Position numbers and translations under genes: made by a program. Below the pieces are notes generated by a model. That model did not search any database and had not been told where the DNA came from. It saw nothing but the letters and a program-made list of their open reading frames with translations. 40,568 nt of DNA from Candidatus Gastranaerophilales bacterium (lineage in GTDB: Bacteria > Cyanobacteriota > Vampirovibrionia > Gastranaerophilales > Gastranaerophilaceae): positions 1 to 40,568 of the forward strand of contig CALVBO010000013.1 of the NCBI GenBank assembly GCA_944325835.1, read 5' to 3'. Each line of letters begins with the position of its first letter. Position 1 is the first letter of the stretch. Below are positions 2,533 to 38,554 of the stretch, piece by piece.

Positions 2533-3450
2533 CTACGCTTTATGTGAACGAAGCTTTTGCGCCATTGCGATTTTAGCTTTTTCATTATTTATGCGTCTTT
2601 GATTGATAATGTCCATTTGCAAATCCTTAATATCTTTAAAGTTTTGGGCTGCAACTTTGTTCTTTTGTGCGCTGTGGTCAAATGCGTGAGCCAACGCTCC
2701 AACGACAACCGCGAACGGTGCCAGGGCTAATGCATATTTACCGACGCTCTTCACTGAAGAAGGCGTATTTTGCGCTATACTTCTACAGCCTGATGCTAAA
2801 GAATCTACAAATGAGTTTTTATTAAATTTTTCACCGAATTTCGTCATATTTTTTTGCATATTAACAACTGTTTTTGATGAAATTCTGTCTGTTAAAGCTG
2901 AAATACCTTTCGGGATATAATGCGCTGCTGCGAACGCTGCGCCGATAGTTGCAAGCATTGTAGTTCCCGGATGTTTTTTCTCAAAGTTTCTTACACCTTC
3001 GGAGGCTTTAGAAGCTTCTCTTTTTGCAAGAACGGTTCCGTCAACGATTGCGAAAAGTCCTGCAAGGCTCAGGGCACCGGCAAGTCCTACGGCTGTTCTG
3101 GCAGCTGCACCGTGTAAATTTTTACCGATAGTTTTAAAGAATTTTGTTGTTAAACCTTTTGGTGAACCTTCTGCAAGTTCTTTTGCAACGGTTTTACCGT
3201 CCATACCGCGGGAAGCAATTGCGCTGTTAATACCGCATAATACAGGGATTGAAGCAATCAAACCGTTAGAAATCTGCTGGTGTTTTTTATCATTTGTTTG
3301 AATTGCAGCACTTTGAACAGCGATTTGTCTGATAGTTTTGTCATCAAGCATTAAAATCGCGTCTTCCTGCTGCCTAATCATAGCTTCACGCGCCTTACGG
3401 GCTCTTGATTTACCAAAATCCACACTATTGTTTACGGCTTGAATTTGCAT
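2533..3450 (-). CDS. Membrane protein of unknown function (lineage-type)
   Basis: 305 residues from the ATG at 3450, chosen over an upstream in-frame ATG (3465) because GGAAGGTG lies at a normal distance before it. The N-terminus is MQIQAVNNSVDFGKSRARK, basic and probably cytoplasmic. Three or four hydrophobic, Ala/Gly-rich stretches follow, at about residues 65-80, 110-130, 165-180 and 240-260 (ALALAPFAVVVGALA), with a basic coiled C-terminus. I do not recognise the family. The short N-terminal Asn-rich strand followed by FG is reminiscent of other unknown proteins in the window (15547-16062, 35897-37300). It ends at the shared terminator with mnmE and is probably monocistronic. Confidence 0.75.
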   Translation of the reverse strand: MQIQAVNNSVDFGKSRARKAREAMIRQQEDAILMLDDKTIRQIAVQSAAIQTNDKKHQQISNGLIASIPVLCGINSAIASRGMDGKTVAKELAEGSPKGLTTKFFKTIGKNLHGAAARTAVGLAGALSLAGLFAIVDGTVLAKREASKASEGVRNFEKKHPGTTMLATIGAAFAAAHYIPKGISALTDRISSKTVVNMQKNMTKFGEKFNKNSFVDSLASGCRSIAQNTPSSVKSVGKYALALAPFAVVVGALAHAFDHSAQKNKVAAQNFKDIKDLQMDIINQRRINNEKAKIAMAQKLRSHKA

Positions 3451-3577: not shown

Positions 3578-4864
3578 ATGAAAAAATTTTACATCCACAC
3601 AATGGGGTGCAAGTCTAACCAATTTGAAGCCTCAATAATCATAGAAAATCTTACTTCTAACGGCATGGTGCAGGTAAAAAGTATTGAAGAAGCCGATTAT
3701 TTTATCCTGAACTCCTGTACTGTGACGCACAAAAGCGACAATGAAGCGTTTTATCTTCTGCGCAGCGCAAAGCATAAAAACGCAGGAATTATCAATGTTT
3801 TAACAGGCTGCATAGCGCAGGTGGAAAAAGAAGAACTTTTGACGCGCGACTACATTGACTTTGTAATCGGCAATGATGAAAAATTAAACCTTTTTGACTA
3901 TATTTCAGGCGGTGAAAAAATCGCGGCGGGCGATATTATGAATATGAAAGATTTTCATAAAATTGTGCTTTCTGATATGACAAAAACCCGCGCAAGCCTA
4001 AAAATTCAAGACGGCTGCGACAACCGCTGCACTTATTGCATAATCCCGTTTGCGCGCGGCAAAAGCAGAAGTGCTGACAGTAAATTTATTATTGAGCAGA
4101 TAAACAATTTTGCAGATCACGGTTTCAAAGAAATTGTGTTCACCGGAATACATATCGGGCAATGGGGAAAAGATTTTGGTCTGGAGCTTTTAGATCTTTT
4201 GAAGGAAGTCGAAGAAAAGACAAAAATTCACCGCTACCGGCTGGGTTCGTTAAATCCGCTGGAAATTACCGGTGAAATGCTTGAATTTTTATCGCATTCC
4301 GAAAAGTTTGCACCGCACTTTCACCTTTCCCTGCAATCTGCCTGCAATAAAACGCTTCGTTCAATGAACCGTTTTTATACTGTTGAATTTTATCTTGAAC
4401 AGATTGACAGGATAAATTCAATGTTTACTCTGCCGTTTCTCGGAAGCGACATAATCGCAGGGTTTGCGGGTGAAACCGAAGAGGATTTTGAAACAACACG
4501 CCAAAACCTTGAAAAATCAGGGCTTACGCAAATCCATACATTTCCTTATTCCGTTCGTCAGGGAACAGTCGGCGCTGCGCGTGAAGGACACGTTCCGGAA
4601 AGGGTAAAGGAAGAACGCGCCAATATTATCAAAGAGATTTCTAAACGCAAATATGATGAATTCGTCGCGAGAAACCTCGGCACCGTACACGAAATCCACG
4701 TTGAGAAACGCCCTCAAAAAGCCACGGGGCTTCTCAAAGGCGTTAGCGAGAATTATTTAACAATCGTGACCGACAGCAAAGATTTAAGCCTGACAAACAC
4801 ACTGCAACAGGTTAAAATCACAGAGGTCAAAGACGGCCAAATTTATGGTGAACTGACAACCTAG
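3578..4864 (+). CDS. mtaB: tRNA-t6A37 methylthiotransferase MtaB
   Basis: Converts t6A37 to ms2t6A37 in ANN-decoding tRNAs, using two iron-sulfur clusters and SAM (family knowledge). 428 residues. The N-terminal MTTase domain carries its three cluster cysteines in MGCKSNQ, NSCTVT and TGCIAQ. The radical SAM motif CDNRCTYC lies at about residues 147-154, and the C-terminal third is TRAM-like. The FxxHTMGCK start and the HIGQWGKD region favour MtaB over MiaB or RimO. Its substrate modification t6A is made by TsaD, also in this window (21326). The stop codon overlaps, within CTAG, the stop of the convergent XRE gene. Confidence 0.93.
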   Translation: MKKFYIHTMGCKSNQFEASIIIENLTSNGMVQVKSIEEADYFILNSCTVTHKSDNEAFYLLRSAKHKNAGIINVLTGCIAQVEKEELLTRDYIDFVIGNDEKLNLFDYISGGEKIAAGDIMNMKDFHKIVLSDMTKTRASLKIQDGCDNRCTYCIIPFARGKSRSADSKFIIEQINNFADHGFKEIVFTGIHIGQWGKDFGLELLDLLKEVEEKTKIHRYRLGSLNPLEITGEMLEFLSHSEKFAPHFHLSLQSACNKTLRSMNRFYTVEFYLEQIDRINSMFTLPFLGSDIIAGFAGETEEDFETTRQNLEKSGLTQIHTFPYSVRQGTVGAAREGHVPERVKEERANIIKEISKRKYDEFVARNLGTVHEIHVEKRPQKATGLLKGVSENYLTIVTDSKDLSLTNTLQQVKITEVKDGQIYGELTT

Positions 4865-5109
4865 TGCGGCTTTTTCAAATTAACTTCCAGTTCTTTATCA
4901 AAATTAATCAGGTCATGCGCCTTAACACCCAGCCCATTTGCAATCTTTTCTAAAGTGTCAAGTTTAGGAGTTCTCTCCAACCGCTCTAAACGACCTATAT
5001 ATGTTCTATCTACATCGCAAACTTCCGCGAAATCTTCTTGGCTTAAACCTAAATTTTCACGGATACTTTGAATTCTATTTGCAAATAATACAGTTAAAGG
5101 ACTTGACAT
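4861..5109 (-). CDS. Small XRE-family (Cro/C1) DNA-binding protein
   Basis: 82 residues, nearly all one HTH_3 domain. The helix-turn-helix runs from IRENLGLSQEDFAEVCDV to DRTYIGRLER and is followed by TPKLDTLEKIANGLGV. It has no effector domain, so it probably acts as a dimeric repressor. The ATG at 5109 is 7 nt from a TATAAA -10, with no SD. An inverted repeat GTGACA-N16-TGTCAC (5132-5159) covers the -35 and lies between this gene and the divergent HAD gene. Autoregulation and control of the HAD gene through this site is an inference. The 3' end overlaps mtaB by 4 nt tail to tail. Confidence 0.88.
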   Translation of the reverse strand: MSSPLTVLFANRIQSIRENLGLSQEDFAEVCDVDRTYIGRLERLERTPKLDTLEKIANGLGVKAHDLINFDKELEVNLKKPH

Positions 5110-16328: not shown

Positions 16329-17399
16329 TTATCGTCTTACACACAACACTGGACGTTGCTCACTATTAGGTATTAAATCATCAACCTGCCCGCCGCGATC
16401 GCCATTGCGCATTACAATTAACAGCATACGGGTTTCACCGTTCTGAACTATTTTACTGGAAGTCCAATATGCATTATTAAAATCTGCTGATAAAAGATTT
16501 TGATTTACAAAAATAGAAATACCTTCCTCAATATTTGGCAGCCGGTATTCACTACCGTAATCGGTACAGGTTTTTGACGCGTCCACACCTACAACACCGT
16601 CACTGGCAAGAGTTGGAGCAGGTATAGGCATTGCAAGCTTAACATCCGACGGATACATTGCGGTCATAAACCCGATATCCTTGCCGACAGTATTCGGGCC
16701 TTTGGTGCCGTTCAAATCATAAATAAAATTGGCACATATTTTGTTTTGAATATAATAACCAACACCGCCGCCCCAGGGAGTTTCCTGCAAACTTCCGATA
16801 CATCCCGGATTGTAAAAAACTAAAACACTTTCTCCGTTTTGAGTTTCAAACGCGGCAGCTTTCGTATCTAACATTGACGTTGTATTAAATCCGTTTGATG
16901 CTGACATCGTCATTTGAGAATTTAATTCCGCCATTGTTTTAGGCATAGAAATTTGTTCACCGTCAGCAGTTGTTATACGGGAAGCTAAACCACAATCCTC
17001 AAGATGATTATTATCACAAATATTGTTTATTTTCATGACTTTAGATAAACCTGCGGTCACAAAAGTTTCAGCGGCGGTATCCTCAATTGAGGTTGAGCCG
17101 GTGGCGCTATCTGTAACTTCTTTCAACGTACCATAACCATTTATTGCAGGCATTAATGAGATTGCCTGTGAAAAGCGTGCATATAAGGCTTTTCTCTGCG
17201 TGTTCCATGTACGTTCGTTTATGTTGCCGGTGAGTGACGGAAGTGTTATTGCCGCTACCACGCCGATTATAGTCAGGGATAACAGGATTTCGGCCATTGT
17301 AAAACCACGCATAATCGTGGTCCACACGCACGGGTTCAATCGGGGATGTCGCTCAGCGACCGGCTCAGCCGGCTCTCCGCCCTTCGCGTTAAACGCCAC
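16329..17399 (-). CDS. Type IV pilin-like protein 2 with C-terminal DUF1566/lectin-like domain
   Basis: The longest uninterrupted frame starts at GTG 17399 (356 residues), but the likely start is ATG 17553, reached only if the G13 tract has 12 (or 9, 15) G. ATG 17312 (MRG) is another possible start without SD. The prepilin motif is RG|FTMAEILLSLTIIGVVAA, with Gly at -1 and Glu at +5. A pseudopilin helix runs to about NGYGTL. The middle has conserved blocks such as SKVMKINNICDN and KGPNTVGKDIGF. The C-terminus (CTDYGSEYRLPNIEE, AYWTSS, RPVLCVRR) resembles DUF1566, a C-type-lectin-like fold. It should be processed by prepilin peptidase and displayed on the surface, perhaps as an adhesin. Terminator downstream, promoter at 17587-17615. 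Confidence 0.82.
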   Translation of the reverse strand: MAFNAKGGEPAEPVAERHPRLNPCVWTTIMRGFTMAEILLSLTIIGVVAAITLPSLTGNINERTWNTQRKALYARFSQAISLMPAINGYGTLKEVTDSATGSTSIEDTAAETFVTAGLSKVMKINNICDNNHLEDCGLASRITTADGEQISMPKTMAELNSQMTMSASNGFNTTSMLDTKAAAFETQNGESVLVFYNPGCIGSLQETPWGGGVGYYIQNKICANFIYDLNGTKGPNTVGKDIGFMTAMYPSDVKLAMPIPAPTLASDGVVGVDASKTCTDYGSEYRLPNIEEGISIFVNQNLLSADFNNAYWTSSKIVQNGETRMLLIVMRNGDRGGQVDDLIPNSEQRPVLCVRR

Positions 17400-17451
17400 C
17401 GCTCGCGCTTGCAGTCGAAAGCGCGGTTTCGCCTGTCGCGCGCTCGTCTGT

Positions 17452-17488
17452 GAGTAGTTTTCGTCTAATTGACGCCCGAAAACTACTC
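17452..17488. repeat. Palindrome in the pilin 2 leader
   Basis: Perfect 12-bp arms GAGTAGTTTTCG (17452-17463) and CGAAAACTACTC (17477-17488). It occupies a position in the leader comparable to the palindromes of pilins 1 and 3 but has a different arm sequence. It is translated in frame when the leader is open. Confidence 0.8.
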
Positions 17489-17499
17489 TCTGGCTCTGC

Positions 17500-17553
17500 T
17501 CAGGGCTCCCCCCCCCCCCCTGTCAAATTGTTTACACTTTTAATTTCTTTCAT
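17500..17553 (-). CDS. Short leader reading frame of pilin 2 as assembled (off state)
   Basis: GGAAGGG precedes ATG 17553. The codons give MKEIKSVNNLT, then G13 read as GGGG plus E and P, and stop TGA (17500-17502). Deleting one G turns this into a frame reading SPEQSQRVV and on through AVAFNAKGGEPAEP into FTMAEILL without a stop, adding an 83-residue leader before the pilin cleavage site. The first residues match pilin 1 (MKEPKSV), so the start itself is conserved. Confidence 0.65.
   Translation of the reverse strand: MKEIKSVNNLTGGGGEP
17508..17520 (-). repeat. G13 homopolymer in the pilin 2 leader
   Basis: Thirteen C on the + strand. It occupies codons 12-16 of the leader and is followed by AGCC, as in pilin 1. 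With 13 or 14 G the frame closes (TGA or TAG); with 12 it is open into the pilin. Confidence 0.8.
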
Positions 17554-17586
17554 TCATTTACCCTTCCTTTCTTAGTTTATACATTC

Positions 17587-17615
17587 ATTATTTAACATAA
17601 CAGCCAATTAGTCAA
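17587..17615 (-). promoter_or_regulatory. Promoter of pilin 2
   Basis: -35 TTGACT (17610-17615), 17-nt spacer, -10 AATAAT (17587-17592), then GGAAGGG and ATG 17553. It begins 3 nt after the stop of the upstream WecA/TagO-like gene. It is the same architecture as pilin 1. Confidence 0.75.
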
Positions 17616-37429: not shown

Positions 37430-38554
37430 ATGCCGCCGTTGCGACCGGAACGCGAGTGTAAAGAGCACTCTGCTGAACAAAACGATTTATTATCGTTTTG
37501 TGAGAGGCGAAATTCTGCAACGATTGATTATCGTTGCTCAGAATTTGACAGGCGGAAGTCGACTGAGGCCACTGACTGGCATCCACAATTGAACCCGAGT
37601 AAGATTTTAGCGTTTACAATGGCAGAAATTTTACTTTCTCTCACAATCATCGGCGTGGTGGCGGCTATTACGCTGCCTAGTTTGACGGGTAACATTAATG
37701 AGCGAACATGGAACACGCAAAGAAAAGCACTCTACGCGCGATTTTCCCAAGCTATTGCCCTCATGCCGGCATTGAACGGTTATGGAACTCTGACAGAAGA
37801 TAGTTCCTCCGGTGCCAGCGATGCGGTTGATACAGCCGCTGAAACCTTTATCACAAGCGGACTTTCAAAAGTTATGAAAATTAATAACATTTGTGATAAT
37901 GAACATCTTTCCGATTGCGGGATACCTGAAAAGATTGTTTCACTAAATGGTTCCACAATCGAAACACCTACAAAAATGTCCGAGCTGAATGAGAGAATAA
38001 TTGATAATTCCTGGACTGGTTCTTATTCTTATTCGCAGCCGGACACAAAGGCTTCGGCTTTTGAAACAGCTAATGGCGAAAGTATCATTACTTTTTACAA
38101 TCCGAATTGCGTTCCTTATATGAATGAAACTAGCGAATACATAACGCAGCCTAAAATGTGTGCTAATTTTATCTTTGATATGAACGGAAATAAAGGGCCA
38201 AATACTGTTGGTAAAGATATCGGATTTATTACGGTTTTTTATCCGACAGATAGTGTTGTTGTTGCGCCGAATGTTCCTGTACAAAGGGCCTCTTCTACCG
38301 CAACACAGCAGGAGGCCACCGGTATTTGTAAGGAACAGGATCCTGAGTTTAGAATACCGAGCCTTAACGAACTTTCTTCAATGTTTGTAAACCAGAGATT
38401 AATTTATGGTTTTATAGAAACAGCCGGAACGAATTACTGGTCATCAACGCTGGTAGATAGTACGTACGGTTGGGTTCAGGGCTGGACTACAGGCGGGCAT
38501 TTAATCCGCGCTCGTTCTCAGCAAAACAGGGTTCACTGTGTAAAAAGGGATTAA
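37430..38554 (+). CDS. Type IV pilin-like protein 3 with C-terminal DUF1566/lectin-like domain
   Basis: 374 residues from the first in-frame ATG (37430), which has no SD. The start is unresolved, and ATG 37619 within FTM would give 311 residues without a leader. The prepilin motif is LAFTMAEILLSLTIIGVVAA, with Ala rather than Gly at -1. Residues after the motif match pilin 2 almost perfectly for about 60 positions (RTWNTQRKALYARFSQAI), then diverge with conserved islands (SKVMKINNICDN, KGPNTVGKDIGF). The C-terminus (FRIPSLNELSSMFVNQ, NYWSSTLVD, WVQGW, VHCVKRD) is DUF1566-like. Without promoter or G-tract it may depend on read-through from the upstream gene, or be a silent copy. Confidence 0.8.
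   Translation: MPPLRPERECKEHSAEQNDLLSFCERRNSATIDYRCSEFDRRKSTEATDWHPQLNPSKILAFTMAEILLSLTIIGVVAAITLPSLTGNINERTWNTQRKALYARFSQAIALMPALNGYGTLTEDSSSGASDAVDTAAETFITSGLSKVMKINNICDNEHLSDCGIPEKIVSLNGSTIETPTKMSELNERIIDNSWTGSYSYSQPDTKASAFETANGESIITFYNPNCVPYMNETSEYITQPKMCANFIFDMNGNKGPNTVGKDIGFITVFYPTDSVVVAPNVPVQRASSTATQQEATGICKEQDPEFRIPSLNELSSMFVNQRLIYGFIETAGTNYWSSTLVDSTYGWVQGWTTGGHLIRARSQQNRVHCVKRD
37477..37501. repeat. Palindrome A in the pilin 3 leader
   Basis: Perfect 10-bp arms ACAAAACGAT and ATCGTTTTGT around TTATT. Confidence 0.8.
37510..37546. repeat. Palindrome B in the pilin 3 leader, shared with pilin 1
   Basis: AAATTCTGCAACGAT / ATCGTTGC(TC)AGAATTT around TGATT. It is nearly identical to 35-71 on the opposite strand, and the next eight bases (GACAGGCG) are also shared. 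Confidence 0.85.

Follow-up and report, generated by a model that had tools for sequence, protein, structure and literature searches.

Organization of the locus

The window, by which we mean the whole analyzed stretch of 40,568 nt (contig CALVBO010000013.1), belongs to a genome of Candidatus Gastranaerophilus (Melainabacteria) of 1.95 Mb in 44 contigs, 99% complete and with 41% GC; an earlier note made from the letters alone had placed it correctly in a cyanobacterial sister lineage. The gene of interest lies on the minus strand. Direct reading gives a Shine-Dalgarno-like (SD-like) sequence AAGGAAGGG at 17561-17569, followed by a leader start whose ATG at 17553 and first eleven codons (MKEIKSVNNLT) occupy 17521-17553, an arrangement shared by dozens of paralogues. 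A tract of 13 G, the in-frame number plus one, fills 17508-17520. Next comes a leader insert of 67 codons (SPEQSQRVVF...TTIMR; 17307-17507), a mosaic of dispersed repeats that is open in the pilin frame, so that 201 nt separate the tract end from the prepilin core. The core, 325 codons from GFTMAEILLSLTIIGVVAAITLPS onward (16329-17306, minus strand, stop at 16331-16329), carries the G|FTMAE motif, an N-terminal helix and a predicted C-type-lectin-like C-terminal domain, assignments that draw on family models, AlphaFold2, Foldseek and a dN/dS of 0.13. This layout agrees with that of the earlier note, apart from its leader length of about 68 codons. The promoter that it named, TTGACT-17-AATAAT at 17587-17615 (minus strand), is present as a pattern, and a pattern scan of the region finds no more such sites than in shuffles (5 found, 3.7 expected). 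Folding of the leader RNA is nothing special (z -1.8), and no Rfam family was found in the window.

The length of the one tract modulo 3, eleven codons into the translated region, determines whether the full product can be read. The ATG frame joins the pilin frame (ON) only with 12 or 15 G. With the 13 G of the assembly a stop follows almost directly, after EP, and with 14 G it comes seven codons beyond the tract, after ALSRARE; the early closure described previously for both lengths is thus borne out.

Two further family members lie in the window. (i) At the contig start, on the minus strand, a truncated member has its start and first eleven codons (MKEPKSVIIYA) at 198-230, a second G13 tract at 185-197, and a leader at 1-184 with one frame open up to CAFT at the contig end. 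(ii) On the plus strand, an open mosaic leader without a G tract (L015, 37301-37609) precedes a member with an Lcl_C-like C-terminus (37610-38554). This leader directly abuts the previous gene and has no clear SD-ATG; possibly it belongs to a copy whose switch was lost.

A large family of tract-bearing pilin-like genes

The leader of the window gene, used as a query against its own genome, found 63 places. The genome has 95 runs of at least nine G, and 93 of at least eleven, for which simple arithmetic at this GC content and genome size expects about 0.1. It encodes 101 prepilin cores in all. We took the stretches around all 95 tracts for study, and a prepilin core lies downstream of the tract in 66 of them; without two double tracts and a spurious case the count is 63, including one member of a second pilin family. 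About 17 further tracts follow the same SD-ATG-tract start in genes that are damaged or run off a contig end. Because genes cut by contig ends may count twice, we state the number of family tracts as at least 60, perhaps 80. The earlier note had proposed a single phase-variable locus; that reading of the tract is supported, and the locus turns out to be one of about 100 family members.

Several contigs of the genome (C7, C13, C23, C33, C35, C37, C41 and others) end at pilin leaders. With the assembly breaking at these places, the family will be undercounted or cut in short-read assemblies.

Where the family leaders begin is indicated by an SD-like core at 53 of 55 leader ATGs. The gene could instead start internally, near the core, leaving tract and leader untranslated and irrelevant. 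The window gene does have an in-frame ATG at 17312 (MRG|FTMAE), and 18 of 58 leaders have an ATG within their last 15 codons; an SD-like core precedes such a start in only 5 of the 58, which gives internal translation starts no support, and they would leave the in-frame distances and missing stops described below unexplained. We give them next to no chance.

Leaders are open, in-frame mosaics

Between tract end and core, the spacing divides evenly by three in 61 of the 66 stretches (binomial p ~1e-23). Over 15.8 kb of leader, the pilin frame holds 14 stops, whereas the two alternative frames contain 263 and 299; twelve of the 14 fall in the one spurious case, and two damaged copies have one each. 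The leaders range from 4 to 231 codons. In those of at least 60 nt, 98% of the DNA recurs elsewhere in the stretches examined, against 17% in controls, and GC content is 53% against 41%. Differences between leaders are spread evenly over the three codon positions (1576:1657:1788), and those between mature parts fall mainly at the third (18475:9542:64965), counts in which the sequences are related and the events not independent. The plain reading is that leaders are translated and that their amino acids hardly matter, as would be the case for a part cut off by prepilin peptidase. With its recurrence at 60-80 loci, the arrangement described in the earlier note is more than chance.

Phrases that recur in leader peptides, CHPELDSGS and CHSELVSES among them, come from dispersed palindromic repeats, which leaders carry in two of three frames; these phrases also turn up in a leader from another genus (L141). 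Similar 3' flanks, TTGCTTAACAGG for one, follow many tracts, whether these lie in pilin leaders or at other sites, some of them clear of any obvious gene (e.g. L108:579, L112:9533, L163:5554 and L167:7171). A search for this shared flank, in the forms NNNNCTTAACNGG and CCGGCTGAGCCGG, found it to be common and not universal.

The mobility of the leaders raises the thought that the tracts serve mainly recombination among paralogues, for example by way of a G-quadruplex, swapping leaders or 5' parts rather than switching translation. Leaders are replaced fast, orthologues can have nearly the same mature gene behind a different leader, leader pieces are shared by different genes, and paralogues hardly differ over the first 60 residues of the core. 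A leader swap would, however, leave the mature protein unchanged, every intact copy has its tract placed and framed as for a translation switch, and unrelated genes are interrupted by tracts as well, so that we see only a very slim chance for this explanation.

A predicted lectin-like tip

The product of the window gene has the prepilin motif G|FxxxE with a hydrophobic helix, and GFTMAEILLSLTIIGVVAAITLP is invariant among its relatives. No library model for N_methyl reaches its cut-off on this product (TIGR02532, 16.1 against 16.3; PF07963, 13 against 21.2); since library models miss their curated cut-offs, we call it pilin-like. The genome has a single prepilin peptidase gene (PF01478, C7:47982-48344). 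For the C-terminal part, Pfam Lcl_C scores below its cut-off on the window gene product (14.2 bits against 34.9), and its sibling L094 reaches 26.1 bits. An AlphaFold2 model built with 48 relatives as input has a pLDDT of 83.8, and its best Foldseek match is 8q4e, the C-terminal domain of Legionella Lcl (E 2.9e-4, probability 1.00), with C-type lectins next. By this model the mature part ends in a C-type-lectin-like fold, which is likely the binding part. Among paralogues, the last ~45 residues are very variable.

Selection on OFF copies and comparison with relatives

For orthologue pairs we used a sister species (contigs CALUQY, Candidatus Gastranaerophilales BRZ_KI__bin23). In eleven pairs whose copy in the present genome is OFF as assembled, dN/dS is 0.03-0.19, with the window gene at the value given above; judged by these ratios, the OFF copies are under strong purifying selection on their mature parts and are kept functional. 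The orthologue of the window gene (L172) is 92% identical and also has G13, behind which lies a different leader of 189 nt, open and in frame. In three other pairs (L100/L217, L077/L226 and L068/L234) the copy here is OFF and its counterpart in the sister species ON, so that tract length and state vary between genomes for family members, the window gene and L172 sharing the same length. Some pairs have nearly unchanged proteins behind leaders of 54 against 549 nt, or of 216 against 42 nt. The earlier note had asked for a comparison of tract lengths in related genomes, which thus reveals differences in length, state and leader; it had also named stops in the leader frame of homologues as evidence against its reading. 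None were found: across five other genomes, all 74 tract-bearing relatives with an identifiable start, L172 among them, have an open leader.

The architecture is common to five congeners. Tracts of at least eleven G, 93 in this genome, number 72-117 in these five and are absent from a sixth (G005); they number 0-57 in other genera of the family and are almost absent beyond. G005 has only 19 pilin hits, and two of its closest have short plain leaders (MNNKL|AFTMAE and MKKF|AFTMAE), which may represent the ancestral form. In two of the congeners (G003 and G004) most leaders are short, many of them 12-69 nt, which suggests that the long mosaics grew later, in the species of the window and its sister. 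A second pilin family (AFTLAEVLITLG) occurs in other genera with the tract at the same place, and several of its leaders are long and open. We also note that JAMPIJ01 contigs (L182 and others), titled Fusobacterium sp. NALB_7963_5, fall within the genus of the window and carry the Gastranaerophilus pilin family; the title of that record looks wrong.

A probable slipped-strand switch

By far the best reading of the locus, supported by the frame kept among paralogues, selection on OFF copies and differences between orthologues, is that of a phase-variable contingency locus. We put at roughly 0.8 the probability that this type IV pilin-like gene is phase-switched by strand slippage at the G13 tract in its leader, as would happen at 60-80 loci of the genome in all. 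Translation would begin at the SD-ATG, pass through eleven codons and the tract, and reach the pilin core only if the number of G fits; otherwise it would meet a stop a few codons past the tract. Each gene would turn ON or OFF independently as replication adds or drops one G, and a population would show shifting combinations of pilins. The core would probably be cut by prepilin peptidase at G|F and everything upstream discarded, whereby any in-frame repeat insert, over the whole observed range of lengths, would be tolerated as long as frame and freedom from stops are kept. We infer switching in living cells, as well as processing, display and binding of the product.

Loss of mismatch repair was considered as a cause and rejected: MutL is present in the genome of the window and in nearly all relatives, with or without tracts. 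Nothing in the genome thus points to lost mismatch repair, a point against the switch even though such loss is not required for it.

Most tracts carry one G too many

The states used here are taken from assembled tract lengths. Across 125 tract-bearing pilins from six genomes, the number of G exceeds the in-frame number by one in 81, is exactly in frame in 31, and is in the third phase in 13. The excess holds within every one of the three spacing classes, and the modal lengths of these are accordingly 13, 12 and 14. In a permutation test the mean was 47.9, and none of 20,000 permutations reached 81, with the proviso that the sequences are related and not independent. Simple random slippage does not predict this excess, which counts against the phase-variation model.

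One explanation would be technical: the genes would all be in frame in the cell, and assemblies would overcall one G. Homopolymers are error-prone, and tracts of G18-G30 at contig ends are clearly unreliable. Yet non-pilin genes cut by tracts of the same length, largely from the same assemblies, are in frame for the most part (11 in frame against 4 and 4, two of these eight out-of-frame cases being pilin fragments; Fisher p 3e-4), so a simple platform overcall does not explain the bias, and the bias tracks the frame class, not the length. We consider assembly or sequencing error very unlikely.

A biological alternative is transcriptional slippage or programmed frameshifting, in which the DNA would normally carry one surplus G, to be corrected in part of the transcripts or by some of the ribosomes, giving steady low expression of many pilins at the same time. 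The predominance of the one-extra-G state, its tracking of the frame in the three spacing classes and its presence in both the window gene and L172 all fit. Against this stand the other two classes already counted (31 genes that fit the frame exactly, 13 in the third phase), the states that differ between orthologues, and the need at the RNA level for one G to be lost or two gained. As a replacement for switching by slipped-strand replication, we think this explanation improbable.

Within the phase-variation reading, we lean towards two accounts of the bias: genes leaving the ON state may usually do so by adding one G, or this phase may be preferred for its earlier stop (median of 4 codons to the stop, against 9 in the other OFF phase). 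Transcripts may also be corrected by slippage. A more far-reaching proposal, which we hold only tentatively and would not bet on, is that in frame plus one G is a resting state, with ~80 lectin-tipped pilins each kept OFF one base from ON through selection or RNA-level correction, few made at once and any of them callable by loss of one G. To our knowledge, no phase-variable family described so far is tuned to its own frame in such a way.

A diversity-generating retroelement and other tract-bearing genes

One paralogue, on contig C9 with a G15 tract (one G above its in-frame number), is the target of a complete diversity-generating retroelement (DGR). In this stretch (L094, G000:C9:40900-48035, where G000 is the genome of the window), the pilin lies at 650-1630, an Avd gene (PF22296) at 2974-3342, the template at ~3612-3752, and the reverse transcriptase at 3777-5015; the last is the only RVT_1 gene of the genome and carries IGNLTSQ. 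All ten differences between template and variable repeat fall on positions that are A in the template. A copy of this arrangement is found in the congener G004 (L163). The window gene has no match to the template. Among the stretches examined, the template matches only this one paralogue and its congener copy, which led us to reject the DGR as the source of all C-terminal variety.

The non-pilin genes cut by G11-G14 tracts (L083 at 508, 3328 and 5113; L073 at 596, minus strand; L091 at 9914, minus strand; L087, L096 and others) include AlgX-like acetyltransferases and an ATPase. Genes of the AlgX-like acetyltransferase kind are commonly phase-variable, which fits the reading of the pilin tracts as switches. 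The interrupted non-pilin genes would make up another, smaller group of candidates for phase variation, most of them in frame.

Comparison with known systems

The pilE/pilS system of Neisseria consists of one expression locus and truncated silent copies. It resembles the present family in its large repertoire of pilin variants with a conserved N-terminus and a variable C-terminus (see also PMC5953494). The dispersed copies here keep SD, ATG, tract and full core, unlike a set of silent 5'-truncated copies serving one expression locus. In Neisseria pilC1 and pilC2, a G tract (G9-20) lies in the reading frame of a pilus-related gene and its length sets ON or OFF; a survey counted ~15-18 poly-G tracts per genome in pathogenic Neisseria (PMC5953494). 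Those are two genes for a pilus-associated protein, whereas the present genome, from an unrelated phylum, has 95 tracts and 60-80 paralogous genes for pilin-like proteins, whose leaders are mosaics and whose tracts show the one-extra-G bias. In Bifidobacterium breve, likewise a gut commensal, expression of a sortase-dependent pilus requires replication slippage at an intragenic G10-G11 tract, and variation of the tract was demonstrated by deep sequencing (PMC9187656); that system comprises sortase pili in two clusters, without leader mosaics or a large paralogous family. Campylobacter jejuni NCTC11168, also a gut bacterium with a small genome and many independent poly-G switches, has 29 loci with seven or more G; its tracts are fewer and shorter and lie in mixed surface-modification genes, not in one pilin family (PMC4965091).

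DGRs with C-type-lectin-like targets share the lectin-like C-terminus with this family, but the template is unmatched by the window gene and the other paralogues examined. Rickettsia palindromic elements are dispersed repeats within coding sequence. They are like the leader repeats in lying in frame inside coding sequence; the repeats here differ in lying largely in the presumably discarded leader of one gene family.

Simple-sequence phase variation is known mainly from pathogens. Among the open-licence papers searched, we found no description of poly-G phase variation in Melainabacteria, and cyanobacteria go unmentioned in a 2025 review of phase variation. If our reading is true, it would extend this kind of variation to the non-photosynthetic cyanobacterial sister lineage of animal guts, and on an unusual scale, one pilin family having 60-80 independent switches kept across a genus. 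Some 100 lectin-tipped pilin genes, 60-80 of them with a slippage-prone run of about 13 G that probably acts as a switch, would make up one of the largest switch sets known. The architecture of the family explains why assemblies of this genus fragment at these genes and why most of its true starts escape gene callers. It makes testable which pilins are ON in each host, whether host or phage selects the states, and whether the extra G comes from selection or from RNA slippage. Should the tentative resting-state proposal hold as well, this uncultured gut lineage would possess a combinatorial surface code, joined to a DGR that diversifies one of its members.
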